From positions 1 to 52,100 of the forward strand of contig CALWKC010000020.1 of the NCBI GenBank assembly GCA_944381165.1: 52,100 nucleotides of DNA. Reading direction: 5' to 3'. How positions within the stretch are numbered: the stretch's first letter is position 1; each line of letters begins with the position of its first letter. The notes below the pieces were generated by a model. It was not told the origin of the DNA, did no database searches, and was given only the letters and a program-made list of their open reading frames with translations. Source of the DNA: an uncultured Lachnospira sp. (GTDB lineage Bacteria > Bacillota > Clostridia > Lachnospirales > Lachnospiraceae). Made by a program: the position numbers and the translations under genes. Of this stretch, positions 11,465-31,699 are shown piece by piece.

Positions 11465-11533
11465 TGATAATTTATACAAAAAACCTGCTGATTTTTACAA
11501 TAGACTTAAAATTAATTTTTTGGGGTGTACAAT
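11465..11533 (+). promoter_or_regulatory. Locus A promoter with paired 13-bp direct repeats
   Basis: Repeat 1 (11465-11477, TGATAATTTATAC), an 8-bp A-rich spacer, repeat 2 (11486-11498, TGCTGATTTTTAC), 29 bp, then -10 TACAAT (11528-11533). No -35 box is visible at 17 bp. The identical geometry is found upstream of locus B (26191-26259). The 21-bp period fits a dimeric activator such as a LytTR-type regulator; that identity is inferred. Confidence 0.6.
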
Positions 11534-11580
11534 ATAAACAGATAAATAATCGTATAGTTAGTGTAAAGGGAGGGTTTATT

Positions 11581-12000
11581 ATGGTAAAAAAGGCATTATG
11601 TGGATTTATTGCAGGTTTATTTGTATTGGGAAGCTGCTTTAAAGCAGAAGCAGGAGTACAGGGAGGAACAGCATGGTATTCCGGATATGAAAATCTTAAT
11701 TTTTATGCCGGAGATGTATATGTTAAATGTGAGTATGGAGTTAAGGAGGACACGGCTTATGTAAATATGGATGCAAATGATGTATGCGATTTTAGCGTAG
11801 ACGGATATGCATATGATTGGTGGGGATTGGAGTATAGATTGTATGGGGGAGCAGACCAGACTACATCTTTTGGAGTAAGTTGTAAAAATACGGTATTTGA
11901 CCAAATGGTGCGTATTACAGCATCTGTGAGGGCTGATGGTCCTGAAACAGGAACGACCGCATATTTTGACCATGATTTCAGAGAAAATTTTTATGAGTAA
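11581..12000 (+). CDS. Small secreted protein, first gene of locus A
   Basis: A 139-residue exported protein of unknown function. It has a signal peptide (MVKKALCGFIAG..., cleavage likely after KAEA near residue 24) and a mature part rich in Gly, Asp, Tyr and Trp with three Cys; predicted beta structure. Residues around 75-95 contain DGY-x4-WG-x-E-Y, which lines up with the first protein of locus B (DGY-x4-WG-x-E-F). The general size, signal peptide and G..W..GY start recall exported bacteriocins such as lactococcin 972, but I see no convincing match. The ATG follows AAGGGAGGG. A weak A/T hairpin (12008-12030) separates it from the lipoprotein gene. Confidence 0.7.
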   Translation: MVKKALCGFIAGLFVLGSCFKAEAGVQGGTAWYSGYENLNFYAGDVYVKCEYGVKEDTAYVNMDANDVCDFSVDGYAYDWWGLEYRLYGGADQTTSFGVSCKNTVFDQMVRITASVRADGPETGTTAYFDHDFRENFYE

Positions 12001-12047
12001 TATGAGAGAAAATTAAAAAATAATTTTTTCGGCGAGGTGAGATTACT

Positions 12048-13220
12048 GTGAAAAAGAAATTGGCTTATTTTTTAGCTACGGTGTTATGTTTAATTGCATG
12101 CGGCTGTTCAAATAAGAGTGTTGATGTGGGCAGTTCAGGTGAGGACGATTTACAGCCCTATTGGAATATGTTTAATCAGCCTGTGGCGGCGGCGGAGAAC
12201 GGATATTATTACATATATCGAAGAAATGTTCAAGACAGCGTGCATATGAAAGATTTAATTGCGTATATGGACGGTGAGACAAAGAGTACGACTATATTGT
12301 GCAATAAGCCGGAGTGCAGGCACGAGGACGAGAGCTGCGACGCCGCGTTGGGCGACGAATACAATAACCAAAGTATTTATTATTATAAAGGATATATTTA
12401 TGTTATCAAAGATGACGAAAGCGACGGAAATTCATATCTGGTGCAGATAAAGCCTGACGGGAGCGAGAGAAAGACATTATTTGAATTGGGTACGATAAGC
12501 ATTGCTTATAAATTGGCTTTCGGCGGCGACAGCGTATACTGTTATAACCGTGTGGGCGGATACGGAGTGGACGAGACGCAGGAGACAGTGCGCAGGAGAA
12601 GTCTGGATGGTAAAGAGGACGATATTATTTTTTCTTATACGGCGAAGGGAGCGCAGGTTTCAGCCGTAAAATTATATGGAAATAAGGCGTTTATTCTTGT
12701 GACATCATGGACAAAAAATGATAATTCTGCCGACATATCCGCTCATGGAAAAGGAGTTTACATATATGATACTGATACGAAAAAGACAGAGCTGTTTATT
12801 GACAAAAGTATAAGCGACTTTACCGTAGATGAGAAAGAAGGCAATATATACTATTTTGTAATAGACGACGGCTTGTATGAACGGAAACTATCAACGGGCA
12901 GCAGTACAAAGCTGCTGGATTGCGAGGACCGGGTAAATAATTACTGCGAGCTGTCATACGACGGTCAGTATTTATATATGTGCAACGAGATGTATAAAAA
13001 TATGATTTACAAGACAGACAGCTATGTATGGGTGCTTGAAAAGAACGGAGAGATTGTAAATAAAATAGAAACAGCCGGTACCTACTGCACGTTTTTTGGA
13101 GACGATAAGTATATTTTCGGGACTGATATGGACAATGAAATTTTAATTATATCAAAAGCGGAAATAGGTAAAGCAAAGGAGTGGGAAAAGCTGAAAAATC
13201 CTTTGATTTTAGGAAATTAA
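12048..13220 (+). CDS. Propeller-like lipoprotein with C-x4-C-x-H-x4-C motif
   Basis: A 390-residue predicted lipoprotein of unknown function. The signal peptide ends in a lipobox (LIAC, Cys18, or ACGC, Cys20). The body is made of repeated short beta segments (YYYKGYIYVI, DSVYCYNRV, NKAFILVT, GNIYYFVIDDGLY, YDGQYLYMCN), typical of a beta-propeller of the DUF5050/TolB-like kind. Near residue 85 lies CNKPECRHEDESC, a C-x4-C-x-H-x4-C pattern shared with the 412-residue protein of locus B and possibly metal binding. GTG start with GAGGTGA 7 nt upstream. The membrane protein gene begins 10 bp downstream. Confidence 0.72.
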   Translation: MKKKLAYFLATVLCLIACGCSNKSVDVGSSGEDDLQPYWNMFNQPVAAAENGYYYIYRRNVQDSVHMKDLIAYMDGETKSTTILCNKPECRHEDESCDAALGDEYNNQSIYYYKGYIYVIKDDESDGNSYLVQIKPDGSERKTLFELGTISIAYKLAFGGDSVYCYNRVGGYGVDETQETVRRRSLDGKEDDIIFSYTAKGAQVSAVKLYGNKAFILVTSWTKNDNSADISAHGKGVYIYDTDTKKTELFIDKSISDFTVDEKEGNIYYFVIDDGLYERKLSTGSSTKLLDCEDRVNNYCELSYDGQYLYMCNEMYKNMIYKTDSYVWVLEKNGEIVNKIETAGTYCTFFGDDKYIFGTDMDNEILIISKAEIGKAKEWEKLKNPLILGN

Positions 13221-13230
13221 GAGGTGGTCT

Positions 13231-15435
13231 ATGCAGGAGTTGAAAAGGATTGCGTGCAAAAAAAATATAATTATTTTTCTAACATGCATTGCGGTAAATC
13301 TTTTTCTTTTTATTAACGCTCAAAGACATGTTTATAACGGTTTAAATCTGCGGGAATATGCGGGAGCTTACGACAGGCTTCTGGAGGCGTGTTTGCAGAC
13401 GGATACGGAGAACGCGGAAAAACTGCTTGAAGCTTATATAAACGGCTCCGAGGACTATAATAATACTGCCCAAGAAAAATCGGCGCAAAGGCTATACGAA
13501 AAGTTAGAATATATAAAAACATACAGAGATGAAATAGATTACGTAATAAAAAATGCGGAGAATAAAAGCAGATTTTCTGTATTTTATGGTGAAAAAAGTT
13601 ATTCCTATTACAATATTCAAAAAACGCTTGCTGATTTTGAAAAAATGACCGATATGGAGCTGCCTCTTCAAAATGATTTGGCGGTTGAAGGTTTTTTTGA
13701 TTATAAATGGATAAACGTCGTCGCTTTTATTTTTATGCTGTTTATATTATATCAGCTGCCGCAGGAGCGCGCTAACGGAATGATTTCTATGACGAGGACG
13801 GCGTCAGGAGGAAGAGGGAGGCTGGCGGTTTGCCGACAGCTTATCATTGCGGGCTTGACTGCCTTAAGCGTGACTGTAATGTATATTTCAACTATGATAT
13901 GTTCGTTTTTGATTTACGGAGCTTCGGACAATATAAACGCTCCCGTTCAGACGCTTCAAAGGTTTTCAATGTATACGCATGCAAGTTCGCAGCTTGATTT
14001 TTTAATTATAAGCTGTCTTAAAAATATTTTTGTCGTATATACGATTGTGTGCATAGTATGGCTTCTTTTAGCCGTATTTAAGGACAGAAAAACAGTAATT
14101 ATAATTATGGCGGTAATATGCGGCGCAGAATATTTATTTTATAAAAAAATCGAAATTCAGAGCGTATACAGAATGCTTCGTCATATAAATATATTTAATC
14201 TGTTATGCTTTAACGATATTTCTATGGGGTATCTGAATACCGGAATACGTTCGTGGGTAGTGTCGGTTGAGAAACTTATTTTATATGCATGTGCGGCAGT
14301 TTGTATCACGTGTTCGGCAGCGGCTGTTATTTTTTTTGAAAAATTAAACAAGGGAATAGAGATAAATGTGCTTGCGCGTCCTCTTAGAAATATAGGCGTA
14401 CTTTGTCAAAAAGTTGTCGCAGGTATGCCTATGCTGTTAAAAGAGATATATAAAATTGTGTTTTCCGGAAGCAGCGTTATAATTATTGTTTTGCTGACAG
14501 CGCTTACTGTTTATTTTTGCAGAGACAGCAAAATGAATTTTTCTCAGGCTCAAAATCAGCTCGATAAAAAATATTCGCAAATGGGAGGCGCCGATTATTC
14601 TGAATTAGAGGAAGAAGCCTTAGGTATTAAAGAAAGATATATTGAAGTTCAGAACAGAAAAATGCAGCTGGTAAATTATGAAGGGGAAGAAGAACATCAG
14701 GCGTACAGCGAGGCGCTTGTGGAAAGCATGGAGCTGGAAACGCAGGTAAAGGCTTATTCGGAAATATATACGAAGCTCTCATATTTAGACGAGCTAAGGG
14801 TTTCGAACGGTATAAACGGCTATATGATGTCGGACAGAGGCTATGAGGAGTTAATAGGAAAATACGGAATAAGCAGAGAAATAAAAATTTTATTTTGTCT
14901 TTCATGCGCTGTTATTTTGATATTATCCGAGGGCTTCCGCAGAGAATATGAGACAAAAATGGCGTCGCTGCTTTATATGTCGGCAAACGGCAGAGCAAAG
15001 CTGTTTGCAAAAAAAATGGCGGCGGGTATTATTGTTGTATCATTTTTGTTTGTTCTTACATATGGAACAGATTGGTTTTATCTCGTCAAGTTTTACGATT
15101 TTCCGTATATGGATGCGCCTGTTCAAAGTCTTACATTTATGAGAAGCTGCACTTTAAATATTAATATTATGGATTATATAGCGTTGCAGTTTATAATGGT
15201 ATATCTGTTTGTGATGACTTTAGCGGCGTTTATATGCTGTATTATGATATTTGTGAATAATAAAAATGAAAAAGCAGGAATATCCGTTGCTGTTGTAATT
15301 TCAATGTTGTGTTCGTGGGCAGTTTTGAAATGGGGAATGCTTAACCCTTTGGCAGCATTTATTGTAATGGCGGTGCTGCTCGCGGCGTTTACGCTGTTGT
15401 CGGGAATATTATGGTGTCGGTGCAAAGTACGATGA
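13231..15435 (+). CDS. Two-half ABC-2-like permease, locus A
   Basis: A 734-residue integral membrane protein, about 12 predicted helices in two similar halves. Each half has one N-terminal helix (about 13-30 and 410-430), an extracytoplasmic region with coiled-coil character, then about five helices. The cytoplasmic element after the second helix of each half (E..NGM.S...TASGGRGRL.. and EYETKMASL...ANGRAKL) resembles the E..G......GR..L signature of ABC-2 permeases. It is paralogous to the 679-residue protein at 29660, sharing SYLDEL/DYLDEL, SDRG and the YMDAP/YLDAP segment. No ATP-binding subunit is encoded beside it. I infer a transport or peptide-handling role in the membrane; annotation as unknown membrane protein is the safe alternative. 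Confidence 0.65.
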   Translation: MQELKRIACKKNIIIFLTCIAVNLFLFINAQRHVYNGLNLREYAGAYDRLLEACLQTDTENAEKLLEAYINGSEDYNNTAQEKSAQRLYEKLEYIKTYRDEIDYVIKNAENKSRFSVFYGEKSYSYYNIQKTLADFEKMTDMELPLQNDLAVEGFFDYKWINVVAFIFMLFILYQLPQERANGMISMTRTASGGRGRLAVCRQLIIAGLTALSVTVMYISTMICSFLIYGASDNINAPVQTLQRFSMYTHASSQLDFLIISCLKNIFVVYTIVCIVWLLLAVFKDRKTVIIIMAVICGAEYLFYKKIEIQSVYRMLRHINIFNLLCFNDISMGYLNTGIRSWVVSVEKLILYACAAVCITCSAAAVIFFEKLNKGIEINVLARPLRNIGVLCQKVVAGMPMLLKEIYKIVFSGSSVIIIVLLTALTVYFCRDSKMNFSQAQNQLDKKYSQMGGADYSELEEEALGIKERYIEVQNRKMQLVNYEGEEEHQAYSEALVESMELETQVKAYSEIYTKLSYLDELRVSNGINGYMMSDRGYEELIGKYGISREIKILFCLSCAVILILSEGFRREYETKMASLLYMSANGRAKLFAKKMAAGIIVVSFLFVLTYGTDWFYLVKFYDFPYMDAPVQSLTFMRSCTLNINIMDYIALQFIMVYLFVMTLAAFICCIMIFVNNKNEKAGISVAVVISMLCSWAVLKWGMLNPLAAFIVMAVLLAAFTLLSGILWCRCKVR

Positions 15436-15509
15436 GTTAGTACAAATAATTGATTTTTTCTCCTTCATGTGATAGACTTGCAGAGGTCTGTGGCAGCAGG
15501 CATGAAATT

Positions 15510-15552
15510 CGAGTGTTCGAGACCTTCCACTCGTAAAACAAAACTAAAGGAG
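15510..15552 (+). ncRNA. preQ1-I riboswitch
   Basis: P1 stem CGAGTG (15510-15515) pairs with CACTCG (15528-15533); the 12-nt loop starts TTCGAG and ends with C, and the A-rich tail TAAAACAAAACTAA runs into the AGGAG ribosome site of queT. This matches the preQ1-I pattern (GG-TTC-nAG...C stem, then AAAAACUAA). The tail pairs into the loop and can hide the ribosome site, so control would be translational. The downstream gene, a queuosine-precursor transporter, supports it. Confidence 0.78.
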
Positions 15553-15563
15553 AAAAACTTAAT

Positions 15564-16046
15564 ATGAAAAACAAAAAAGCAGTATTTATTACTCAGGCAG
15601 CGGTTATCGCCGCAATTTATGTGGTACTTGTGGTTATTTTTGACTATTGGAGCTTCGGGCCGATACAGTTCAGAGTTGCAGAGGCGCTCACGGTTCTTCC
15701 GTATTTTACGCCCGCGGCTATACCGGGACTTTTTATCGGCTGTCTCATATCAAATGTGCTTGGCGGCGCGGTTATATGGGATATTGTTTTCGGAAGCATT
15801 GCGACGCTTATTGGAGCGGTCGGTACATATCTTCTCAGAAAATATAAGTGGCTTGCTCCGCTTCCGCCGATTTTAGCTAATACGGTTATTATTCCGTGGG
15901 TGCTGAAGTATGCTTACGGAAATGACGGCATGGTATGGTTTTTTATGCTTACTGTAGGAGGCGGCGAAATAATAGTATGCGGAGTGCTGGGAATGCTGCT
16001 GCTTTTTGCACTTAACAGATACAGACATCATATATTCAGAACATAA
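15564..16046 (+). CDS. queT: ECF transporter S component, queuosine precursor
   Basis: Substrate-binding membrane subunit of an energy-coupling factor transporter for preQ1/preQ0 or queuine. The 160-residue protein has five to six hydrophobic helices and the QueT features: IQFRVAEALTVLPYFTPAAIPGLF at residues 32-56 (given here only in part, FRVAEALTVLP), then FIGCLISNVLGGA and LANTVIIPWVLKY. The shared EcfA/EcfT module is not in the window. A preQ1-I riboswitch covers its ribosome site, consistent with repression when precursor is plentiful. It ends before a bidirectional terminator. Confidence 0.9.
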   Translation: MKNKKAVFITQAAVIAAIYVVLVVIFDYWSFGPIQFRVAEALTVLPYFTPAAIPGLFIGCLISNVLGGAVIWDIVFGSIATLIGAVGTYLLRKYKWLAPLPPILANTVIIPWVLKYAYGNDGMVWFFMLTVGGGEIIVCGVLGMLLLFALNRYRHHIFRT

Positions 16047-16096
16047 AAAAGGCTGTCGCTTCACGAAAATTATTCGTAAAGCGGCAGCCATTTTTT
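16045..16096. terminator. Bidirectional terminator between queT and the marR-type gene
   Basis: The stem spans 16051-16089 (GGCTG.CGCTT.ACGAA / TTCGT.AAGCG.CAGCC). It is followed by ATTTTTTG on the plus strand and by a T-run on the minus strand, fitting the convergent genes. Confidence 0.85.
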
Positions 16097-16172
16097 GTTA
16101 TTTCCTGCGCTCTTATGCTGTACACAAGACCTGATAGCTCCCGGCTTGCGCAGGGGTTATTTGATTTCTGTT

Positions 16173-16610
16173 CTATTTCCATTGCTCGAAGAAATCCTCC
16201 AGCTTCACAAATGCTTTTGTGAGAACAGAGGCCTCCTCTTCGGTCAAATTTTTCATCACGCTTTCTATCATGGATTTGTGAAAATTTTTATGATGCCTGT
16301 AGGCGGAAAGACCCTTTTCTGTGAGTGAGGCATATACAATTCTTCTGTCCTTTGTGCTTCTGACGCGAAGGACATATCCTTTTTTTACAAGACCGTTCAT
16401 TCCGATAGTAAGAGTACCCATAGTGACGCCTAATAGCTTTGAGATTGCGGTCATAGTTCTCGGCTCGTCAATTCCGACAGCTTCTATGATGTGCATGTCG
16501 GTAACGGAAATATCTTTAAATTCATCTGTAATAAGTGCTTTTTGTTCAATGTCCAAAATATCGTTAAACAGATTTACTAACAAATTATTTAATACTTCAA
16601 ATGTATCCAT
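16173..16610 (-). CDS. MarR family transcriptional regulator
   Basis: A winged-helix repressor or activator of 145 residues. The recognition region reads TAISKLLGVTMGTLTIGMNGL and is followed by the wing VLRVRSTKDRRIVYASLTEKG. The wording KDRRIVYASLTEKGLSAYRHH resembles FabT-type regulators of fatty-acid synthesis, but no fab genes are in this window, so the target is unknown. The ATG at 16610 fits the family start; a longer frame from 16670 would add 20 unusual residues. The ribosome site is weak. It is divergent from the sugar kinase gene, with a shared 254-bp spacer. Confidence 0.85.
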   Translation of the reverse strand: MDTFEVLNNLLVNLFNDILDIEQKALITDEFKDISVTDMHIIEAVGIDEPRTMTAISKLLGVTMGTLTIGMNGLVKKGYVLRVRSTKDRRIVYASLTEKGLSAYRHHKNFHKSMIESVMKNLTEEEASVLTKAFVKLEDFFEQWK

Positions 16611-16864
16611 TGGACTTACCTGTTCTTTCTGTATGTCAGTTGACTTAAAATGTAAAAAAATTTGATGCACAGGGCTGTTATAATTCTGATATGTACTTTT
16701 TATGCTGTAAACCCCAAACTCTTTAATATATAAACAGTATAAACGAAAAGTATCCTATTTGCAATCAAGGGTATTGAGAAAATAAACAGTAATAGGGTTT
16801 GCTTTTTTAGAATTTACGTAGTATCATAAATATATAATTAGTTCGCTATGAAAAAGGAGATAGT

Positions 16865-17881
16865 ATGAAGTTCATTGCAATAGGAGAATTGATGTTAAGA
16901 TTATCTCCGCCGAATTACGAAAAGATTGTTTCCACACACAGTTATGTGGTAAATTATGGCGGAGCAGAAGCAAATGTAGCGGTTTCTTTGGCAAATCTCG
17001 GGGTTGACAGCACATTTTTTACAGTTCTTCCCAATTCAGATATAGGCAAGTCTGCAATTAATTATTTTAAGGCAAATGATGTGCACACTAAGCATATCAT
17101 CAAGGCTGACGGCAGAATGGGCGTATATTATCTTGAGGAGGGGGTTTCAGTAAGACCGGCTCAGGTTATATATGACAGAGCGGGTTCTGCGTTTGCCGAG
17201 TATGACTATAAGGATGTAGATTTTGAAAATATTTTAAAGGATTATGACTGGCTTCATCTGAGTGGAATTACTCCGGCGCTCTCTTACAACTGCCGCCGTC
17301 TTGTTGATAAGGCGGTAAAGACAGCAAAGAAGCTTGGACTGACTGTGAGCTTTGACCCTAATTTCAGAAGTACTCTTTGGTCTTTCAGTACTGCCAGAGA
17401 TGTACTCAGCAAATATCTGCCTTATGTTGACGTTCTTATCGGAATTGAGCCTATTCATGTATATAATGAGGACGGAACAGATGTAAAGGACGGTTTGACA
17501 ATGGATCCTTCTTTCAAGGATATGGACAGAGTTTTCAAGGCTATAGACGCTCAGTATCATATGAAGGCTATCGCCAGAACAGTGCGTTATGTCCATTCGG
17601 GAAGCAACAACTCTCTCAAGGCTTTCTTTTATACTAACGGGGAAACATATGAGAGCAAGACAATCACATTTGATATTGTGGACCGTGTCGGCGGCGGAGA
17701 CGCTTTTTCTTCAGGTCTTATTTATGCACTCATGCAGAATGATATGAGTCCGGAAGATACGGTTAATTTTGCGGTTGCCTCCTCAGTAATGAAGCACGCG
17801 ATCCGCGGCGATACAAATATTACAAGTGTAGACCAGATTAAGAGACTTATGAATAATTCTTCATTTGATGTTCAGAGATAA
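16865..17881 (+). CDS. PfkB family sugar kinase (KDG kinase-like)
   Basis: Ribokinase-fold carbohydrate kinase, 338 residues. Signatures: NYGGAEANVAVSLANLGV near residues 30-47, SFDPNFRSTLWS, and the C-terminal DRVGGGDAFSSGLIYAL with the catalytic Asp and anion hole. FDPNFR and the overall pattern are closest to 2-dehydro-3-deoxygluconokinase, which phosphorylates KDG in hexuronate breakdown. No KDPG aldolase or uronate genes are adjacent, so the substrate is tentative. AAGGAG is 6 nt before the ATG. A terminator follows about 90 bp downstream. Confidence 0.85.
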   Translation: MKFIAIGELMLRLSPPNYEKIVSTHSYVVNYGGAEANVAVSLANLGVDSTFFTVLPNSDIGKSAINYFKANDVHTKHIIKADGRMGVYYLEEGVSVRPAQVIYDRAGSAFAEYDYKDVDFENILKDYDWLHLSGITPALSYNCRRLVDKAVKTAKKLGLTVSFDPNFRSTLWSFSTARDVLSKYLPYVDVLIGIEPIHVYNEDGTDVKDGLTMDPSFKDMDRVFKAIDAQYHMKAIARTVRYVHSGSNNSLKAFFYTNGETYESKTITFDIVDRVGGGDAFSSGLIYALMQNDMSPEDTVNFAVASSVMKHAIRGDTNITSVDQIKRLMNNSSFDVQR

Positions 17882-17964
17882 AGTTATTGCTGCGGTAAAA
17901 GGCATGCGGATTTCATTGTATTACATATTATGAGGCTGCTTTACACGATTTAAAATTAAATATA

Positions 17965-18020: not shown

Positions 18021-18036
18021 TATATGCGGTCAGCAA

Positions 18037-18068: not shown

Positions 18069-18088
18069 GACGGACACGATAATTATGT

Positions 18089-21159: not shown

Positions 21160-21188
21160 CCTTGCCTGACATTATAATTTTAAAGCGC

Positions 21189-22446: not shown

Positions 22447-23793
22447 GTGGGGATAAATATTTGGTATTTTCTTATATGTGCAGCCGAAATATATACAATA
22501 TGTAACTATTATTCCATGTTTTTTGAGTACAGGTACGGAAAGATATTTGGGTCATCGTCAGCCGCATTATCATACATTATGCTTTTCACGGCTCAGAAAT
22601 ATGGACAGGCTGTTTTTCAGCTTTTGGTGTTTGCGGCGGTTAATATACTGATTTGCGCGTTCATTTATAAGGGAAGCTCAGCAGATATTTGTTTCCACGC
22701 AGTTTTGATGACAGCTTTAATATGTCTGTCTCATACGGCAGCTTTTTCGTTTTTGATGGAAATATTTTATATAATTAAAGGACGAAATATGTATTTTATC
22801 TCAGATATATCACTTAGCGCCGGCGTATTAATATTATATATTTTAGTAAAAATTATTGTAAAAACACAGAATAAAGTCGGAGCTTCTGAGGAAAAAGGAA
22901 AATATAAAAAACGGTCTGATAGCGCTGTTTTGCTGATGTGTGTTGTCCCTGCGATGTCCGTATTCGCATATATAGTTTTTCTTTCTGTATTTTTAAAAGA
23001 AAAATTATCGGAGCAGACATGGTTTATTGTTTTTATTTGTTCAGTTATATTTTTGGCAATAAACGTACTCATGGTTATTTTATACAGATATTTAAAATAT
23101 ATTATCGCTGACTTTTATGAGATGAAACTTAAATTCAAGAGCCAAATCGCAGAGTCTGATTATTACAGGGAGCTTTCACAGAGAAATGAAAGCCAGAAAA
23201 TTATAGTGCATGACATTAAAAATCACCTGAATACTATCAGAGTGCTCAATGAGCAGGGAGAGACGGCGGAGATAAAAAAATATATCGACAGTCTTGTAGA
23301 GGCGTCTAAATTTCATAGAAAAGTCAGATACAGCGATAATATAGCGCTTAATTCCGTGCTCCAGAAGTATTTACAGTACTGTGAGGACAATAAGATAAAT
23401 TTTCAGGTTGATATAGGAAATGAGAGTGTAGATTTTTTAAATTATGATGAAGTATCGGCGCTGTTCGGCAATCTGGTTGAAAACGCCGCGGAGGCAGCGT
23501 CAAAAGTAGAGCCTGAAAATTTAAGGTTTATTGATTTAAGCGTTAAATACAGAAGGGATGAGCACAGGACAGTAATTACCGTTCAGAATTCATGCTGTGT
23601 TAGACCGCTTTACGATGAGCACGGAGCAAGTATAACGAGTAAATGGGAAAAGGACAGTCATGGATACGGTACAAAAAGTATCACTAAAATAGTTAAAAAA
23701 TATAACGGAAAAATAAGAAAATCATATATAGAGGCGGATAAAATTTTTTATGAGCAGATTTATATTGATAATAAGAAAGCAGTGAAAGCATGA
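22447..23793 (+). CDS. Sensor histidine kinase, GHKL type (AgrC-like)
   Basis: A 448-residue membrane kinase. The N-terminal 210 residues form about six helices with little extracellular loop, as in AgrC-type peptide sensors. The kinase part has IIVHDIKNHLNTI with the predicted phosphoacceptor His255, the N box LFGNLVENAAEAA (about 339-351) and a G box GYGTKSI. This is the HPK10/GHKL_5 class whose partners are LytTR response regulators. No response regulator is adjacent, so it is an orphan here. GTG start with AAGGGGGA 6 nt upstream. It lies between loci A and B, whose promoters carry paired repeats of a LytTR-like period; a link is conjecture. Confidence 0.88.
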   Translation: MGINIWYFLICAAEIYTICNYYSMFFEYRYGKIFGSSSAALSYIMLFTAQKYGQAVFQLLVFAAVNILICAFIYKGSSADICFHAVLMTALICLSHTAAFSFLMEIFYIIKGRNMYFISDISLSAGVLILYILVKIIVKTQNKVGASEEKGKYKKRSDSAVLLMCVVPAMSVFAYIVFLSVFLKEKLSEQTWFIVFICSVIFLAINVLMVILYRYLKYIIADFYEMKLKFKSQIAESDYYRELSQRNESQKIIVHDIKNHLNTIRVLNEQGETAEIKKYIDSLVEASKFHRKVRYSDNIALNSVLQKYLQYCEDNKINFQVDIGNESVDFLNYDEVSALFGNLVENAAEAASKVEPENLRFIDLSVKYRRDEHRTVITVQNSCCVRPLYDEHGASITSKWEKDSHGYGTKSITKIVKKYNGKIRKSYIEADKIFYEQIYIDNKKAVKA

Positions 23794-24270: not shown

Positions 24271-24291
24271 TGAGACTGTGAGGAGTGAGAA

Positions 24292-25131: not shown

Positions 25132-25155
25132 AATTTTAAATACAGGAGTGTTAAG

Positions 25156-25944
25156 GTGGCAGACCCATATCAGATATTAGGTGTATCAAGAGATGCATCG
25201 GACGAGGAAATTAAAAAAGCATACAGAACGTTAAGCCGTAAATATCATCCTGACGCTAACATAAATAATCCTAATAAGGATAAGGCTGAGGAAATGTTTA
25301 AGACTGTTCAGCAGGCATATAACCAGATTATGAAGGAAAAAGAATCGGGATACAGCTCAGCGGGCGGATATTCCGGTTACGGAGGTTATTCAGGCTACGG
25401 CTCTGCCGGAAGAAGCGCGGGAAACAGCGGCCGAGGATATGGCTATGACGGCGACAATCAGGGCACAGGTGAAAACCCGTATGGTGATTTCGGCGGTTTC
25501 TGGGGGTTTGGTCCATTTGGCTTCGGGGGATATTCTTACAGCGGCTACGGTCAGGACAATCCCGAAAATATGGGTGACGACGAGACAAGCCGTCATCTGA
25601 AGGCAGCGGTTAATTACATTAACAGCGGAGCTTACGAGGAGGCTATTAATGTTTTAAACGGAATTGATAACCGGGACAGCAGATGGTATTATTACAGCGC
25701 AAAGGCAAATTCGGGCGCGGGAAATACCGCTACGGCATTGGAACACGCAAAGCACGCGGTTGAACTGGACCCGGACAATATGGCATATCAGACGCTTTAC
25801 AGGCAGCTTCAAAGCGGAGGACAGTGGTATAGCGGAAGGGGCAGGGAGTACGGCAGAACAACAATAAATCCGGGAGGCTACTGCATGTCGCTGCTGTGTT
25901 TAAATCTCTGCTGCAGTCCGTTCTGCGGAGTGAGATTTTGCTGA
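25156..25944 (+). CDS. DnaJ-domain protein with TPR-like region and Cys-rich tail
   Basis: A 262-residue J-protein. Residues 3-65 are a J domain ([19 protein letters not shown], then KYHPDANI with the HPD motif that stimulates Hsp70). Residues 70-145 are a Gly/Tyr-rich linker ([13 protein letters not shown]). Residues 150-220 look like two TPR-type helices ([34 protein letters not shown]). The last 20 residues contain six cysteines, which is unusual for the family and suggests metal or Fe-S binding or lipid modification. GTG start with AGGAG 7 nt upstream. A client is not known. Confidence 0.85.
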
Positions 25945-25960
25945 TTAAATATAAAAAGTT

Positions 25961-26028
25961 AAAGGCACGGATTGAGTCAAGTGTAAATTTTTACAGAGAT
26001 TTACAATATTGACTTATCCGTGCTTTTT
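25961..26028 (+). terminator. Terminator after the dnaJ-type gene
   Basis: AAAGGCACGGA (25961-25971) pairs with TCCGTGCTTTTT (26017-26028) with further pairing inside. The loop contains a TGTAAATTTTTACA palindrome. The T-run follows on the plus strand. Confidence 0.75.
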
Positions 26029-26190
26029 GTTGTCTTATAGCGTGCGTTCCGTGTGAAAACTGATACTCGGACGTATTTTAAACGGTTATCTTGCAATGGA
26101 CAAAATAATAACCCACAGCAATATAAATGTGATAAACAGGCAAAAAACTGTATATAAAGTAATAAGAGGGGTTAAAAAAGAGGACAGAGG

Positions 26191-26259
26191 TGCAAATTTT
26201 ATCAAAAAACATGCAAATTTTTACATTATTATAAAAAGGCTATTTAAGTAGTTTATAAT
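26191..26259 (+). promoter_or_regulatory. Locus B promoter with paired 13-bp direct repeats
   Basis: Repeat 1 (26191-26203, TGCAAATTTTATC), AAAAAACA spacer, repeat 2 (26212-26224, TGCAAATTTTTAC), 29 bp, then -10 TATAAT (26254-26259). No -35 box at 17 bp. Period, spacer and distance to the -10 are exactly those of locus A (11465-11533). The stretch 26029-26190 upstream shows nothing recognisable. Confidence 0.62.
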
Positions 26260-26329
26260 ATAGAAGTCAGATAATGTGCGTGAAATTAATTTTTATTTTA
26301 TTGCCTGAGAGTCTGAGGTGTAATTTTGA

Positions 26330-26396
26330 GAGGCGCGGAAAGGTAATTATTCTTACGAATCCGCGCCTCGCGAAAGAGTTCGCTTGCGAACTCTTT
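26330..26396. repeat. Two palindromes in the locus B leader
   Basis: GAGGCGCGGA (26330-26339) pairs with TCCGCGCCTC (26360-26369). AAAGAGTTCGC (26373-26383) pairs with GCGAACTCTTT (26386-26396) across a TT loop. They lie between the promoter and the first gene, making the 5' leader about 150 nt longer than in locus A. Confidence 0.7.
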
Positions 26397-26457
26397 GTTT
26401 CTTCTGACAGTGTTTTTAATGCAGGTATTATAGAATTTATGAAAGGTGGAAGAGCGA

Positions 26458-26838
26458 ATGAAAAAGTTATTTAAAAAATTAATGGTGCTGGGATTGTCGG
26501 CTGCGCTTGTCACGGGAAGCGCGCTTACAGTATTTGCAGAAAAAAATGATATTAGTGGAAATGCAGGAAACACAAAGTTTAATGGAACAGTTTATGCTGA
26601 GCCGTACAGTGCAGGGGCTTATATGTCTACCGATGAGGTTGCGGATTTATATATTGAGGATGGTTATACTAAGACGTACTGGGGTGAGGAATTTACCTTC
26701 AGTTCAACAAATGAACAGAGCACTTACACTGCGGCATCAAACAGAAGTTCAACAAATTACACGTATACGAGGGCAAATTTTATTGTGTGTTCAAACGACG
26801 GAGGTTACAATAAAATATTTGCTAATGTGAGCAGATAA
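26458..26838 (+). CDS. Small secreted protein, first gene of locus B
   Basis: A 126-residue exported protein of unknown function. Signal peptide MKKLFKKLMVLGLSAALVTG... with probable cleavage after VFA (residue 27). The mature part is rich in Ser, Thr, Asn and Tyr with a single Cys; predicted beta. Around residue 70, EVADLYIEDGYTKTYWGEEF aligns with DVCDF-V-DGYAYDWWGLEY of the locus A protein, so I think they are distant homologues. ATG 26458 is chosen over GTG 26446 because it directly starts the signal peptide. A G/C hairpin with only three T (26843-26880) follows and could be a leaky terminator. Confidence 0.7.
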   Translation: MKKLFKKLMVLGLSAALVTGSALTVFAEKNDISGNAGNTKFNGTVYAEPYSAGAYMSTDEVADLYIEDGYTKTYWGEEFTFSSTNEQSTYTAASNRSSTNYTYTRANFIVCSNDGGYNKIFANVSR

Positions 26839-26842
26839 TTAA

Positions 26843-26880
26843 GCAGGCAGCTTGCGCCGTTCTGACGCAGGCTGCCTTTG
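26843..26880 (+). terminator. Possible leaky terminator inside locus B
   Basis: AGGCAGC (26845-26851) pairs with GCTGCCT (26871-26877), with TTGCG/CGCA inside. Only three T follow. Placed after the small secreted gene, it would favour that gene over the membrane genes. Confidence 0.55.
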
Positions 26881-26905
26881 ACGCATAATAAGGAGGGGTT
26901 AAGCA

Positions 26906-27601
26906 GTGAAAGTAAGAAATCTGAGATTGATTGCGTTGGTTATACTCTCTGTCATATTCACGGTTTTAGGGGGATGCGGCGAGCAGGAGGATACGGGAAT
27001 ATTTGCGAAAGTGAAGAAAACGGAGTACGAAGAGGATGGAATTAAGTACATAAGAGAAGAGGGAAGCAGGGTAACGATAGCGTATCCGGTTATTGATGCC
27101 GGGCAATTTGAGGAATATGAAGAGGAACAGATTGCGTCATACTCGTCACTTGCAAGAGGAAGTGCAGACAGCGCCAGAGATTACGGATATTATTATATAC
27201 ACGGGATGGACTGGACGCAGGTATATACGGACGCGGCGATAGATAGAATAGAGTATACTTTTTATAACGGAAGGGCATATTTTTCAGATCAGTGTCTTGA
27301 TGATATATCTGTCAGCAACGGAAATTATACAGGCAGAGCGGTGTCTGTCAGCCTGTCGGAGCAGTCGGATTTATACCTTAATATAGCGCTGGAGTTTAAG
27401 TCAACAGATAAGGAATATCAGAGCTACATGCAGACAAGTTTCAGCGAAAAAAAAGCAATGTCAGAGCTTCTTGAAAACGGAATTATAGAGGCGAAGCTGT
27501 ACTATAAGGACGGAACACAGAGCAAGGAATATCTGAAAATTAAGACGTCAAGCGAGACCACATGGTGGAGCGGAAGTATATATCGTCTCATTGAAAAATA
27601 A
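26906..27601 (+). CDS. Lipoprotein of unknown function, copy 1
   Basis: A 231-residue lipoprotein with lipobox VLGGC (Cys24) and a mature part starting GEQEDTGIFAKVKKTEYEED. Predicted mixed alpha/beta; the stretch DYGYYYI.GMDWTQVYTD and the end SGSIYRLIEK are identical or nearly so in the copy at 28952, about 75-80 percent identical overall by eye. No known domain is recognised. GTG start with AAGGAGGGG upstream. It begins 67 bp after the small secreted gene, beyond a hairpin, and is 14 bp ahead of the next gene. Confidence 0.7.
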   Translation: MKVRNLRLIALVILSVIFTVLGGCGEQEDTGIFAKVKKTEYEEDGIKYIREEGSRVTIAYPVIDAGQFEEYEEEQIASYSSLARGSADSARDYGYYYIHGMDWTQVYTDAAIDRIEYTFYNGRAYFSDQCLDDISVSNGNYTGRAVSVSLSEQSDLYLNIALEFKSTDKEYQSYMQTSFSEKKAMSELLENGIIEAKLYYKDGTQSKEYLKIKTSSETTWWSGSIYRLIEK

Positions 27602-27615
27602 AGGGGGTTAATTTA

Positions 27616-28854
27616 ATGAAGCTTAACAAGAAGATATTGTTTCCGGCAGTGTTCACGGTATTTATAGCGGCAGTGATACTGATATATGTGTTCAGCCACA
27701 AAAATAAAGAGGCGGAAATTGCCATTAATTATGATAAGTTAAATGTGGGAGAAACAGAAGGGGACGATGCATCACAGAATTACTGGAACACGGACGAATC
27801 GCACATGGTTGCAGCTGCGGAGAACGGGTATTATTTTATGACTAACACCGGTTCGTATATTATGTACTTTGACATAGAGTCAAATGAGGTAATACCTGTC
27901 TGCGCAAAGGCTGACTGCGCTCACAACACTGAATCCTGCAACGCATATGTGGGAGATGAGAAAAAAGTGTCAGGCATCTACTATTATCAGGGATATCTTT
28001 ACTATATGCCGGTAAAGAACGGAATGGCGGTGCTTACGCGAATGGATGCAAGCGGCGGAGACAGAAAGGAGATAGCTGAGCTGATTCCAAATGAAGGAAA
28101 CAACAACTTTATCCAGCTTATGTTTCACGGGGACTGCGTGTACGTTTATGACTGCCTGAGCCATATTCATTCAAATGAGGAGTACACTGAGCATATATGG
28201 GAGGTTTCGTTAAACGACGGGAGCAAGAGAAGCATATATGAGATAACAGGTGTAAATTTAACTGTTAAGAATGTAAAGAGCTTCGGGGATAAGCTTTTCT
28301 TTATGGTGCAGCAGTCATGGGAAGAAAAGAAAGATGATGAAATAGGCATAGCGCGTGCCAAGAGCCTCGGGGTTTTCGCATACGATTATAACACTGATAC
28401 GGTGGAGACAATAAGTGAGAACAATATAAACGACTACTATATAGTGCCGGAGGAGAACAGATTTTATTATTTTGTTACGGGAAGCGGTCTGTATGTGTCC
28501 GACTTGTCGGCAGGGGACGAAAAGCTGCTCATGAAATCCACCGATACTATGGATATGTGCAATCTCTCGTATGACGGAAAATATTTATATGTCACAAATG
28601 CCAAATGGATGAGTTATCTGACATTTGTTCTTGACCGTGATGAAACAAAATGTCTGGTTATGACTTTGGACGGTGAGATTGTCAATGAAATTGAGTGCAC
28701 GGATTTTCTATCTTTGTATTTTGGCGATGACAGATATATGTTTGCGGAGATACCTGAGCAGAACGGTTTTGTCTGCATAGATAAAAGCGCGATAGAGACC
28801 GCAAAGGAGTGGACCAGTGTTAGCGAGACAGTAATAGATTTGATAGACAGGTAA
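27616..28854 (+). CDS. Membrane-anchored propeller-like protein with C-x4-C-x-H-x4-C
   Basis: A 412-residue protein with one N-terminal helix (about 7-27) and no lipobox Cys, so it is probably a signal-anchored extracytoplasmic protein. The rest repeats short beta units (YYYQGYLYYMPV, DCVYVYDCLSHI, DKLFFMVQQSW, NRFYYFVTGSGLYV, YDGKYLYVTNA). CAKADCAHNTESC near residue 97 gives the same C-x4-C-x-H-x4-C pattern as the locus A lipoprotein at 12048, of which it is a clear paralogue. Role unknown; sensing or presenting a ligand outside the cell is a guess. AAAGGGGG precedes the ATG. Confidence 0.7.
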   Translation: MKLNKKILFPAVFTVFIAAVILIYVFSHKNKEAEIAINYDKLNVGETEGDDASQNYWNTDESHMVAAAENGYYFMTNTGSYIMYFDIESNEVIPVCAKADCAHNTESCNAYVGDEKKVSGIYYYQGYLYYMPVKNGMAVLTRMDASGGDRKEIAELIPNEGNNNFIQLMFHGDCVYVYDCLSHIHSNEEYTEHIWEVSLNDGSKRSIYEITGVNLTVKNVKSFGDKLFFMVQQSWEEKKDDEIGIARAKSLGVFAYDYNTDTVETISENNINDYYIVPEENRFYYFVTGSGLYVSDLSAGDEKLLMKSTDTMDMCNLSYDGKYLYVTNAKWMSYLTFVLDRDETKCLVMTLDGEIVNEIECTDFLSLYFGDDRYMFAEIPEQNGFVCIDKSAIETAKEWTSVSETVIDLIDR

Positions 28855-28951
28855 GCTGAAATAAGAAGCAGTAAACGGGAGTGAGGAATTAGTCGGACGT
28901 CAATATGTTTATCGGTTCAAAGAAGATTATGTAGTCCGGAGGGGAGTGTTT

Positions 28952-29647
28952 ATGAGACGTGTAAAAGTAAAATTAAGGGCGTGCATAATACTGACTGCTA
29001 TGTGCATAGTTTTAACAGGCTGTAACGAGCAGGAGGACACGGGTATATTTGCGGAAGCAAAAAAAACAGAGTACGAGGAGGACGGAATTAAGTACATAAA
29101 AGAGGAGGGAAGCAGATTAACGATAGCATATCCGGTTATTGACGCCGGAAAGTTTGAGGGATATGAAGAGGAGCAGATTGCTTCATATCTGTCATCAAGC
29201 AGCGGAAGTGTGGGCAAAGTTGAAGATTACGGATATTATTATATAACCGGAATGGATTGGACGCAGGTATACACTGACGAATCGATAGAGAGAATAGAGT
29301 ATACATTTTATAACGGCAGGGCATTTTTTTCAAATGAGTGTCTTAATGATATTTCGATGAGCAACGGAAATTATACAGGAAGGGCGGTGTCTGTCAGCCT
29401 GTCGGGGCAGTCAGATTTATATCTGAATATGGCGCTGGAGTTTAAGTCAACAGATAAAGAATACCAGAGCAACAGGCAGACTGGTTTCAGTGAGGAAAAA
29501 GCGTTTGCTGATATTCTTGAAAACGGGATTATAGGAGCGAAACTATACTATAAGGACGGAACGCAGAGACAGGAATATTTAAAAATAAAGACGTCAAGCG
29601 AGTCGAGATGGTCGAGTGGCAGTATATACCGTTTGGTTGAAAAATAG
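28952..29647 (+). CDS. Lipoprotein of unknown function, copy 2
   Basis: A 231-residue lipoprotein with lipobox VLTGC (Cys25) followed by NEQEDTGIFAEAKKTEYEED. It is a close paralogue of the protein at 26906, differing mostly around the EEEQIASYLSSSSGS and KQTGFSEEKAF segments. The duplication flanks the 412-residue gene. ATG 28952 is selected because GGAGGGG (28938-28944) sits 7 nt upstream; GTG 28946 lies inside that site's reach. A 97-bp gap without hairpin precedes it. It is 12 bp ahead of the membrane protein gene. Confidence 0.7.
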   Translation: MRRVKVKLRACIILTAMCIVLTGCNEQEDTGIFAEAKKTEYEEDGIKYIKEEGSRLTIAYPVIDAGKFEGYEEEQIASYLSSSSGSVGKVEDYGYYYITGMDWTQVYTDESIERIEYTFYNGRAFFSNECLNDISMSNGNYTGRAVSVSLSGQSDLYLNMALEFKSTDKEYQSNRQTGFSEEKAFADILENGIIGAKLYYKDGTQRQEYLKIKTSSESRWSSGSIYRLVEK

Positions 29648-29659
29648 GGGGCTGATTGT

Positions 29660-31699
29660 ATGGCAGAGTTAAAACGGATTTTCAGCTTAAAGAGGCTTTG
29701 CGTGCTTTTTTTGCTATGCGCTGTAAATATTGGACTTTTTCTGTATGGAAATCCACGGGAGACAGATGAGGAGAGAATAAGCAGAGATGCTGCCATGCAT
29801 GCGGCTTATATTGAGAATTATCCCGGAAATATTGATGAGATAATCACAAATGCTGAGAGATTAAAGAAATACAGTATATTTACGCAGGCTGGAACATTTG
29901 CGTACAGCAACATTTTACAGACGTCGGAGGATTTTAAGCGTGTTGATAACGTAGTGGTGACAGAGGATGAGTATCTGGGCGTGGAAAAATTCGTTCAGTA
30001 TTATTATATTTATTACATTGCGTTTGCGTTTGTATTGTTTGTTGTTTATGATTTATTTAAGTCGAGGGACAATGGCGTATGGCAGCTGGATTTCTGTGCA
30101 AAAAGAGGACGGGAATATCTTGCTGTCTGGCAGATGTTTATTATTTTTCTATCGTCATTTATTACACTTGCCGCTTTGTATTTTTCAACCTTTGCTGCCG
30201 CAATGCTCAGATTCGGAGGAATAAGCGATTTGGGCAATCCCATACAAAACATACAGATATTTGAGAAGTTTACTTATCCTCTGAGTAAGATACAGTATGT
30301 ATTAATCTTATTCCTGGTTTCATGGGCTTCGCTGTGCTGCCTTGCGTTGATTTTATGGTCGGTGTTTATGGTATTCAGGTATAGAAACCACGGACTTGTT
30401 ATCGTGCTGATATTTATCGGAGCAGAAATTTTAATTTACAGCAACATATCCATGCACAGCGCTTATAATGTTTTTCATTTTATTAATATTGTTAATATTG
30501 TAAGAATTAATGATATGATAAGCGGCTATCAAAACTGGGGTTTTAAGACATATGTTTTTTCAGTATCATCTGTCGTTATATTCAGCCTGTTTATAATAAC
30601 GGCTGTCAGCTGTATGGCTGCTTTATTGAGAAGCGCCGACATGAGGCCTTACTGCAGCAGCAGAGGGGTACTGGATAAAATCAGCTCTTTTGTAAATCAA
30701 AATTATCAGAAAATATTTTCAAGGTCGGTTTCTGTTTTAATGGAACTGCACAAATTAATTATAACAAGCAAAGGCGTTTGGATTGTCTTAATAGTAATAA
30801 TATCCGTATTCTATTTTTCTTCCAACGGAAAAATGAACTATACGGACGCGCAGCTTGAGAAAGACAAAATTTATCTTGAGCATGGAGGAAGTGATTTCTC
30901 GTACATTCGGAATATGGTCGACGAAAAGAGAAAAGAATTAGAAGCAGTTATGCAGCGGGTAAATGAATATACTGAGCTGAAAAATTCGGGGCAGGAAATT
31001 AATATCGGAGAATATGCCCAGGTGATGGAGACAATGCATCAAATATCAGCTGAGTATTCAAGTATGTCAGAGTACAGCGAAAAGCTGGATTATCTTGACG
31101 AATTAAAAACAAGCGCGGGTGCTGAGGGGTGGCTTATCTCAGACCGCGGCTGGCAGGAAATAATAGGGCAGAACGGTTATAACAGAGAGCTGATATTACT
31201 GATTATCTTGTCTGCGGGAGTTATGCTTATTATTTCGGAGGGTATCTCTATAGAATACAGGACAGGAATGTATTTTATGATTAATGCAGCCGCAAAAGGA
31301 AGAAAGCCGCTTAAGATAAGAAAAGCATGCGCAGGAATTATATTTACTGTCATATTGTTTTTAATTGTGTATGGAATAGATTTAATATTTATGTGGAAAT
31401 ACTATGGAATGCCTTACCTGGATGCGCCGCTTTGCAGTCTGACATTTGTCGGCGATATGCTGGGAAAGGGAATATATAAGCTTTCGCTTGCTCAGTATAT
31501 AGTTAAAAATATAAGCATATGGGGATTTTTGTGTCTGGGGTTAGCGGTCAGATTGCTGCTTGTGCTTGCGGTTATGGCAAGCGCGATGGTAATATCCAAT
31601 GTTATAAAAAAACAAAATAACAGAGGAGTAATACTTGTCGCGCTTGCGCTTGAAATATTTATTATTGTGCTTTTTTCGAGATTACTGGTATTTGTTTAG
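29660..31699 (+). CDS. Two-half ABC-2-like permease, locus B
   Basis: A 679-residue membrane protein paralogous to the 734-residue protein of locus A. Two halves, each with one helix, an extracytoplasmic segment and about five helices; the break is near residue 370 (SKGVWIVLIVIISVFYF). Conserved pieces include DYLDELKTS, the ISDRGWQEIIGQNGYNREL region, EYRTGM...AAAKGRKPL (ABC-2-like cytoplasmic element) and GMPYLDAPLCSLTF. No ATP-binding partner is next to it. Its 3' end overlaps the convergent DUF885 gene by 18 bp. Function is inferred only as membrane transport or peptide handling. Confidence 0.65.
   Translation: MAELKRIFSLKRLCVLFLLCAVNIGLFLYGNPRETDEERISRDAAMHAAYIENYPGNIDEIITNAERLKKYSIFTQAGTFAYSNILQTSEDFKRVDNVVVTEDEYLGVEKFVQYYYIYYIAFAFVLFVVYDLFKSRDNGVWQLDFCAKRGREYLAVWQMFIIFLSSFITLAALYFSTFAAAMLRFGGISDLGNPIQNIQIFEKFTYPLSKIQYVLILFLVSWASLCCLALILWSVFMVFRYRNHGLVIVLIFIGAEILIYSNISMHSAYNVFHFINIVNIVRINDMISGYQNWGFKTYVFSVSSVVIFSLFIITAVSCMAALLRSADMRPYCSSRGVLDKISSFVNQNYQKIFSRSVSVLMELHKLIITSKGVWIVLIVIISVFYFSSNGKMNYTDAQLEKDKIYLEHGGSDFSYIRNMVDEKRKELEAVMQRVNEYTELKNSGQEINIGEYAQVMETMHQISAEYSSMSEYSEKLDYLDELKTSAGAEGWLISDRGWQEIIGQNGYNRELILLIILSAGVMLIISEGISIEYRTGMYFMINAAAKGRKPLKIRKACAGIIFTVILFLIVYGIDLIFMWKYYGMPYLDAPLCSLTFVGDMLGKGIYKLSLAQYIVKNISIWGFLCLGLAVRLLLVLAVMASAMVISNVIKKQNNRGVILVALALEIFIIVLFSRLLVFV

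Follow-up and report, generated by a model that had tools for sequence, protein, structure and literature searches.

The stretch of DNA analysed here (52,100 nucleotides from an uncultured Lachnospira sp., referred to as the window) carries two loci of similar gene order, and the question they raise is whether both encode one functional system and, if so, what this system does. An initial annotation had placed locus A at 11465–15435 and locus B at 26191–31699, where we indeed found both, and had described each as a small exported protein, a propeller-like surface protein and a two-half permease. Our leading explanation, put forward tentatively, is that these loci are bacteriocin-like modules with ABC immunity, in which a single ATPase encoded on another contig (C38) would serve most of the permeases in trans.

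Composition of loci A and B

All features of the two loci lie on the forward strand. Locus A encodes a small exported protein of 139 aa (11581–12000, ATG start, signal peptide by eye), a lipoprotein in which alignment places the motif C85 C90 H92 C97 (12048–13220; the propeller-like protein, here CCHC protein) and a permease that sequence comparison identifies as a fused two-half ABC-2-type protein (13231–15435). In locus B, a leader with two hairpins (26324–26375 and 26373–26396, the second a perfect 11-bp stem) separates the promoter from the gene for the small exported protein (26446–26838, starting with GTG at 26446 or ATG at 26458), which is followed by lipoprotein B1 (26906–27601), the CCHC surface protein (27616–28854; N-terminal anchor and no obvious lipobox, by eye), lipoprotein B2 (28946–29647) and another fused two-half ABC-2-type permease (29660–31699). 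The lipoproteins B1 and B2 are 75% identical and are additional to the genes that had been listed for locus B.

The counterparts in the two loci are related. The small proteins are homologous past the signal peptide by profile comparison (94%, E 1e-7, columns 39–124), although it should be noted that another small-protein group also scored 94%, via the signal peptide alone. Their proposed core, DGY-x4-WG-x-E-Y/F, is present in both and only partially conserved in other members, and small proteins of the DEWG type (C3b, C7 and relatives) resemble the A/B type in the signal peptide only. Comparison of small protein A with that of a sister genome gave a dN/dS of 0.16. With E-values calculated for a set of eight proteins, the CCHC proteins share 32% identity (E 5e-47) and the permeases 31% over 563 aa (E 1e-88), with the landmarks YLDEL, SDRG and MDAP/LDAP at the same positions, as had been noticed. 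The C-x4-C-x-H-x4-C motif was likewise confirmed in both CCHC proteins. In an alignment of 54 relatives, taken from 66 listed sequences, C, C, H and C are the only invariant columns; the fixed pattern is matched by 45 of the 54, as the distance to the last C varies, and the four residues are also kept in 22 of 23 additional matches from other families. Such invariance amid divergence suggests that the residues form a metal or disulfide site, which is directly testable.

The description of the permeases as two-half proteins proved correct, as they carry an internal duplication of ABC-2 type: the halves align with each other (E 1.6e-29, 320 columns; reversed control, 13.6% probability), and the layout of helix, outside domain and helices occurs twice. 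No curated permease model matched them above cut-off; at one relative locus (L099), one of two split relatives matches ABC2_membrane_4 with 21.4 bits, below the cut-off of 27. None of the eight A/B proteins scored above cut-off in Pfam or NCBIfam, and the three main protein families are unnamed in the general libraries searched here. A sequence search of solved structures returned nothing useful for the CCHC protein, the permease or the small protein, and a defence-system reading found a lone stray match, of a restriction-enzyme model to lipoprotein B1 (E 0.0007). No bacteriocin model was listed for the small proteins of A and B (Pfam and NCBIfam up to E 10) or for those of two further loci, C17 and L173 (NCBIfam up to E 1). 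Membership in the lactococcin 972 family was rejected, as none of these four small proteins matched the family model; the earlier statement that the resemblance to lactococcin-972 loci is confined to layout thus stands.

Promoters and regulators

The promoter geometry is common to both loci, as had been proposed. Pattern comparison revealed a LytTR-type box in A (11470–11499; two 9-bp direct repeats 12 bp apart, a 21-bp period) and in B (26196–26225; half-sites with two mismatches). The 30-bp boxes are identical at 24 positions, and a -10-like hexamer follows exactly 28 nt downstream (TACAAT, 11528–11533, and TATAAT, 26254–26259). A pattern merged from the A and B boxes found no match in 100 shuffles, which should be read considering that it was built on these two sites. 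The genome contains 14 LytTR matches. The same promoter type is seen at six other places, and four of these belong to relatives of the loci or of the transporter; one LytTR-type site precedes a tyrosine recombinase gene, and in G219, a sister genome, the A box repeat is matched at 12/12. When up to two mismatches were allowed, the box was no commoner than a backward control (45 versus 49), and a test of the 21-bp repeat in single promoters was mostly non-significant (p 0.08 for A, 0.115 for B). The promoter claim therefore rests on the near-exact sites, the likeness of A and B, and the -10 spacing, for which 31 distinct sites were analysed, whereas the site listing holds 45. No such box was found before the orphan ATPase gene (no site on C38) or before loci C18, C6, C3a and C7. 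We also considered that the promoter of A or B might be invertible, but dropped this idea as the boxes lack long flanking inverted repeats.

According to PMC6193735, LytTR sites with a 9-12-9 repeat layout drive bacteriocin promoters in Firmicutes, and the HdrR/BrsR regulons described there share with our sites the two 9-bp repeats 12 bp apart and the dispersed promoters. The repeat sequence, however, differs here, and one of our sites lies before a recombinase gene. A GHKL kinase is encoded in the window (22447–23793), and GHKL/LytTR pairs adjoin several relative loci (L072, L073, L168, L169, L190). AgrB adjoins two sister loci, with AgrD-like peptides there by eye; visual inspection of the window ORFs of at least 150 aa showed neither AgrB nor AgrD.

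Distribution of the gene set and role of the small protein

Beyond the two loci described initially, eight more of the same build occur elsewhere in the source genome, giving ten dispersed loci in which a small exported protein is followed by a CCHC surface protein and a fused two-half permease; in every one of them the small protein lies 5' of the CCHC protein. Relatives of the permease are found in 19 of 22 genus genomes and in 54 of 200 family genomes (E <= 1e-5, partial and split ones counted). The ten own loci, the relatives across genus and family and the common promoter type support the proposal of one functional system. Its suggested conservation as a trio, in contrast, stood in part: the CCHC surface protein and the permease are kept, the small protein is not universal, and an ABC ATPase belongs to the core. 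The small protein occurs in 8 of 25 other fetched genus loci (2 of the 8 being orthologues of own loci) and in 2 of 26 fetched loci from other genera, which rules out the trio as a universal unit. These counts refer to the loci fetched, not to a random sample, with at least 2.5 kb upstream and ORFs of at least about 75–90 aa, and were made by eye, as an automatic count (7/9, 8/25 and 3/26) missed some small proteins and took wrong ones.

By analogy, it is moderately likely that the small protein is a bacteriocin-like antibacterial, with the CCHC protein and the transporter as its immunity. Firing of a GHKL–LytTR circuit would lead to Sec-dependent release of the small protein as an antibacterial. 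The producer would be protected by the surface protein and transporter, which would bind their cognate partner on the outer side and extract it from the membrane. The protection step is modelled on the presumed roles of the lactococcin-972 and lantibiotic immunity genes. In lantibiotic immunity, a LanI lipoprotein and a LanFEG ABC-2 transporter are encoded beside the secreted peptide, as would be the case here, except that the permease halves are fused in our loci and no lantibiotic synthesis gene was seen by eye in A or B. Lactococcin 972 and streptococcin B loci also contain a Sec-exported small protein followed by presumed immunity or transport genes and are controlled by a regulator that binds upstream; they differ in that our loci have an extra CCHC surface protein, come in about ten copies and, in A and B, lack an ATPase. 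According to PMC11796350, no lactococcin-972-type locus has had the functions of its second and third genes verified. Loci without a small protein would be immunity-only. Speaking against this explanation, the small protein was not seen in most of the loci fetched from other genera, so that the transporter needs a use independent of it.

This last point also speaks for an alternative that we consider unlikely, namely that a core of surface protein, permease and ATPase senses or detoxifies foreign peptides, with the small protein as decoy, adaptor or signal. In Bce-type systems, kinases are the partners of such transporters, and the core would be Bce-like in its task but not in family. The 24 of 26 fetched other-genus loci in which the small protein was not seen, and the GHKL/LytTR pairs beside several loci, would fit. 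However, none of the ten own loci lacks a small protein upstream of its CCHC protein, and this, together with a sixfold co-duplication of the two in G426, a genome of another family, suggests a cognate pair. There, six small-protein/CCHC cassettes lie beside one ATPase and one permease, and each small protein precedes its CCHC protein, with which it co-diverges (rho 0.80, 8/720 permutations), whereas no co-divergence with the preceding CCHC protein was seen (rho -0.31). It should be considered that co-divergence in this array is also expected under tandem duplication alone. The own genome presented no such correlation (rho 0.07, p 0.29, 11 pairs), nor did its six close loci (rho 0.28, 116/720 permutations).

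It is quite improbable that the transporter matures lipoproteins or small proteins or places them on the surface, as in adhesin or coat assembly. Many surface products are moved by ABC-2 exporters, and one to seven CCHC proteins are found per transporter; the small proteins and lipoproteins, however, bear Sec-type signal peptides (by eye), which make a dedicated exporter unnecessary, and inspection of A and B by eye showed no enzyme for anchoring or coat formation. Because of these signal peptides, export of the small protein, which had been suggested initially, is likewise an unlikely task for the permease; sensing, the other initial suggestion, may be its role.

If the small proteins are indeed antibacterial, Clostridia would possess in these loci an extensive and so far hidden set of genes for competition. 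It is possible, if rather doubtful, that they form an unnamed class of cassette, in which a Sec-exported protein and a dedicated, metal-binding CCHC protein would be duplicated and dispersed, many paralogous fused permeases would depend on one ATPase, retained in the genus for an entire set of permeases with immunity or recognition roles, and LytTR regulation would partly co-switch the cassettes and also control a recombinase. Either way, this is a multi-copy, partly co-regulated system, apparently made up of antibacterial or signalling modules of an uncharacterised kind.

ATPases and permeases

Absent from the initial description is that neither locus A nor locus B contains an ATPase gene. 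Among the ten own loci, the ATPase is absent in eight, one locus (C4) is cut by the contig start with 136 bases left, and one (C1) has its own, 47% identical; any sharing would therefore not be universal. The genome contains a single orphan ATPase, on C38 among unrelated genes (ABC_tran, 95.8 bits). The models closest to it are GldA/DrrA, which it matches below their cut-offs, and the closest structures are those of ABCA; it scores 96.4 bits on L_ocin_972_ABC (cut-off 254.85) and 124.6 bits on a lantibiotic-protection ATPase model (cut-off 309.75).

The orphan is 73–84% identical to 13 genus ATPases that adjoin very different permeases. Within these 13 adjacent pairs, median identity is 26% for permeases and 77% for ATPases, and the two are uncorrelated (Spearman 0.13, p 0.24); 24 pairs from other genera gave 26% and 48%. 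In one genome (G008), two permeases are 26% identical and the ATPases of both 78%. Of the loci fetched with 2.5 kb upstream, an ABC ATPase adjoins 20 of 26 from other genera and 10 of 25 from the genus itself, and permeases with and without an ATPase neighbour are intermingled on the tree, forcing at least nine changes; 4 of the 28 ATPase-less genus permeases (L022, L186, L187, L201) lie within about 220 bases of a downstream contig end. One genome in three contigs (G200) has five permeases without an ATPase neighbour and one such ATPase alone. The ATPase is present in 18 of 19 permease-bearing genus genomes (one a fragment) and in none of the three without permease. In the family, it was found in 46 of 54 genomes with permease versus 36 of 146 without, a tally made by hand from 200 genomes (ATPase in 82 at E <= 1e-60, permease in 54 at E <= 1e-5), with two samples equated by handles and at most 12 and 5 candidates scored per genome.

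The permeases also carry an E..G..GR motif, presumably the NBD-coupling motif of ABC-2 permeases. Its conservation in permeases without (n=27) versus with (n=15) an adjacent ATPase is 0.55 versus 0.49 and 0.44 versus 0.44; among windows it reaches the 99th percentile in the first half and the 71st, which is not outstanding, in the second. From these comparisons we strongly infer that the permease is a genuine ABC transporter with its ATPase outside the locus and, equally, that the C38 ATPase acts in trans to power the majority of the ten. It is improbable that the orphan is functionally unrelated and that the ATPase-less permeases either do not pump or rely on whichever common ATPase is available. 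In favour of this are the separate ATPase of C1, another genome (G215, 96% complete) in which two permeases occur while this ATPase is missing, and the fact that coupling is deduced from sequence; against it, the orphan closely resembles permease-adjoining ATPases, its type is missing from all three permease-less genus genomes, and the coupling-like motif is undecayed in ATPase-less permeases.

A single ATPase that serves several transporters in trans, as would be the case here, is known from MsmK-type systems, in which one ATPase powers several sugar importers without their own (PMC4519317); those act in carbohydrate uptake, whereas our permeases are of ABC-2 type and are encoded next to exported proteins. 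Should the ATPase indeed be shared, loss of one gene would disable many transporters at once, and the function of the whole set could thus be tested in one strain.

Gene sets of loci A and B and their distribution in the genome

Locus A (11470-15435, + strand) encodes a small exported protein, a CCHC lipoprotein and a permease, in this order, and locus B (26196-31699, + strand) a small exported protein, lipoprotein B1, a CCHC protein, lipoprotein B2 (75% identical to B1) and a permease. None of these eight proteins reached the cut-off of a curated Pfam or NCBIfam model. As proposed in the initial annotation, the propeller-like (CCHC) proteins of A and B match each other (32% identity, E 5e-47 in the eight-protein set), as do the permeases (31%, E 1e-88), while direct comparison of the small proteins in the same set gave only E 0.003. 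Profiles of their nearest kin, however, matched at 94% (E 1e-7) over columns 39-124, beyond the signal peptide; a control comparison also reached 94% through the signal peptide alone, but over columns 1-34. Selection on small protein A is purifying, with a dN/dS of 0.16, as compared with 0.14 for CCHC protein A, 0.32 for permease A, and 0.05 and 0.01 for two housekeeping controls.

The kinship of the two loci is thus real, but the count of two was too low. Searching the genome (2.57 Mb, 60 contigs) revealed ten permease loci, namely A and B on contig C20, two on C3 (C3a and C3b) and one each on C17, C18, C6, C4, C7 and C1. In all ten neighbourhoods read, the order was small exported protein, CCHC protein, permease. 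C3b contains two small-CCHC pairs, C17, C18 and C4 contain extra small proteins or lipoproteins, and C18, C4 and C3b carry LytTR genes within or immediately upstream. Elsewhere in the window, two adjoining ORFs of 253 and 132 aa lie on the minus strand (46995-48170), the first being transposase-like by eye.

Internal duplication of the permease and the probable location of its ATPase

The permease is internally duplicated, as its N-terminal half aligns with its C-terminal half (72 permeases, 320 columns, E 1.6e-29; the reversed control gave 13.6% probability). According to averaged hydropathy, a single helix in each half is followed by a loop of 91 or 129 residues, which we take to lie outside the cell, and then by more helices. 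Human ABCA transporters have the same layout of helix, outside domain and helices, and are the closest PDB entries to an orphan ABC ATPase encoded on contig C38. In some relatives within the family (L099, L101), the permease is split, and two proteins of ~370-450 residues have an ATPase beside or between them, and one of the two L099 proteins weakly matches ABC2_membrane_4 (21.4 bits, cut-off 27). Judged by sequence, the permease is of the ABC-2 type.

We counted an ABC ATPase as adjacent when it was 200 aa or longer, on the same strand and no more than 600 bp away, and used loci whose upstream sequence spanned at least 2.5 kb. Such an ATPase was found at 20 of 26 fetched loci of other genera, as compared with 10 of 25 of the genus. 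In the present genome, one adjoins C1 and none adjoins eight of the ten permeases; the contig start cuts C4 136 bases after the permease. With the ATPase of a same-genus species (G008) as query, three ATPases at least 45% identical were found in this genome, on C38 (83%), C1 (46%) and C58 (45%), the next being 39%. At a contig end, the C58 ATPase adjoins a half permease of the same family (E 2e-35), together with a lipoprotein from outside the CCHC family (E 0.15). The C38 ATPase is solitary, flanked by thrS/glpK-like genes on one side and sbcCD-like genes on the other (named by eye).

Among 22 genomes of the genus, including this one, 19 have the permease and 17 an ATPase of at least 73% identity. 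An eighteenth ATPase, in the sister genome (G219), is represented by a fragment whose 107 residues are all identical to the query; it lies at a contig end next to sbcCD-like genes, as on C38. The ATPase is absent from all three permease-less genomes (G202, G214, G218), and G215, with a permease and no ATPase, is the exception (18/19 versus 0/3, Fisher chance 0.0026, calculated by hand). Comparing 13 adjacent pairs within the genus (78 comparisons) gave identities of 22-96% (median 26) for the permeases and 67-99% (median 77) for the ATPases, with no significant correlation (Spearman 0.13, p 0.24). One ATPase lineage therefore stands beside very different permeases within the genus. In other genera, 24 such pairs (276 comparisons) had median identities of 26% for the permeases and 48% for the ATPases (Spearman 0.17).

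In a tree of 44 permeases of the genus, including our own (16 with an ATPase next door and 28 without, four of these ambiguous), this label required 11 changes, nine or more of them on branches with good support; 60 of 500 shuffles gave a number as low. Permease B is 44%, 40% and 40% identical to its nearest ATPase-bearing relatives. A coupling-like motif, at the 99th percentile in the first permease half and at the 71st, not outstanding, in the second, shows no decay in permeases lacking an adjacent ATPase. Taken together, we strongly favor the permease being an ABC transporter powered in trans, with the C38 ATPase as the putative energiser of most of the ten.

Promoter likeness and candidate regulators

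The common promoter geometry noted for A and B holds, their LytTR-type boxes being identical at 24 of 30 positions, with a -10-like hexamer at +28 in both. The LytTR layout known from bacteriocin promoters consists of a pair of 9-bp repeats spaced 12 bp apart, upstream of -35 (PMC6193735). The exact TTTTTACA-N13-TTTTTACA occurs at five sites genome-wide, upstream of locus C17, the C4 LytTR gene, the C58 operon, a C9 secreted-protein gene beside a GHKL-LytTR pair and a C3 tyrosine recombinase. One-mismatch boxes precede A and the C3b LytTR gene, and two more lie within coding regions (L213, L215); the box of B has two mismatches. At that level the box is not enriched genome-wide (45 sites versus 49 for the backward control). 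Of these 45, 31 distinct sites were examined, and at six of them (A, B, C17, C4, C58 and the recombinase) a near-TATAAT hexamer (no more than one mismatch) lies exactly 28 nt downstream. The C9 site has two mismatches there, the best C3b hexamer is at 29, and none of the remaining 23 sites has such a hexamer at 28. No box was found before C18, C6, C3a or C7, and upstream sequence of C1 is limited to 85 bases; the perfect 21-bp repeat of C3a differs in sequence.

The boxed C4 gene encodes a short LytTR protein (L022:4987-5325, 112 aa), which suggests a feed-forward regulator. The recombinase (L237:4536-5571, C3:59535 onward; Phage_integrase, E 7e-24) has an exact box with TATAAT at +28 and is apparently part of this regulon. 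On C9 (L238:550-8670), the genes that follow the GHKL-LytTR pair and the boxed promoter encode a secreted protein of 183 aa, membrane-anchored proteins, an ATPase whose nearest model is one for lantibiotic protection (under cut-off) and a membrane protein. This is another type of secreted-protein/ABC locus, and it may supply the regulator. The window itself encodes a GHKL sensor kinase (22447-23793), with no response regulator seen adjoining; the sister genome has this kinase too (L156:13172-14518). Between promoter B and the first gene (26324-26396), two adjacent hairpins, one with a perfect 11-bp stem, are possibly an attenuator or a repeated palindromic element.

Proposed role and CCHC cassettes in other families

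LytTR-type control, AgrB at sister loci, loci with the transporter alone and small-protein divergence at C1 hint that the small protein might be a bacteriocin, against which the CCHC protein and transporter might confer immunity; transporter-only loci would then be immunity-only. AgrB adjoins two sister loci (L173, L190), with AgrD-like peptides seen by eye and no Pfam match for these. Between C1 and the sister genome, small proteins are 47% and permeases 90% identical, although the sister has two CCHC copies and the compared small genes may thus be paralogues. Among the matches listed, the titles and abstract openings of open-licence literature contained no description of such a system.

C85, C90, H92 and C97 are the sole invariant residues in 54 aligned CCHC proteins (mean column identity 18%), and we read them as a putative metal site, disulfides being a possible alternative. 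The CCHC proteins occur in 18 of 391 genomes of a class-wide sample, in nine bacterial families besides that of the present genome. Ten regions were taken from nine of those genomes, and seven (L245-L249, L252, L253) have a C38-matching ATPase beside a same-family permease that is either fused or divided in two; of the others, L250 has pieces of the permease and an ambiguous ATPase, L251 stops at a contig end and L254 has neither.

In G426 (L245), from another family, six small exported proteins are each encoded immediately 5' of their own CCHC protein. They are 127-129 aa long, apart from one whose call, with an upstream start, has 164 aa. A seventh CCHC protein follows, and then a single ATPase, 57% identical to that of C38, and a single permease. 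No homology to the small proteins of A and B was detected outside the signal-peptide region; matches to groups A5-A7 were weak, and that to A8 (89.8%) covered A8 columns 2-55, mostly signal peptide. No LytTR-type repeat was found before the G426 small genes. Each small protein co-diverges with the following CCHC protein (rho 0.80, 8/720 permutations) and not with the preceding one (rho -0.31, 542/720), which shows inheritance as a unit rather than contact; no such correlation was found in our genome. The six tandem cassettes (L245:3700-15970) have near-identical signal peptides and ~280-bp stretches 5' of the small genes, including the promoter region, mature parts 36-74% identical and a matching CCHC protein each, a pattern that suggests diversification of the exported part.
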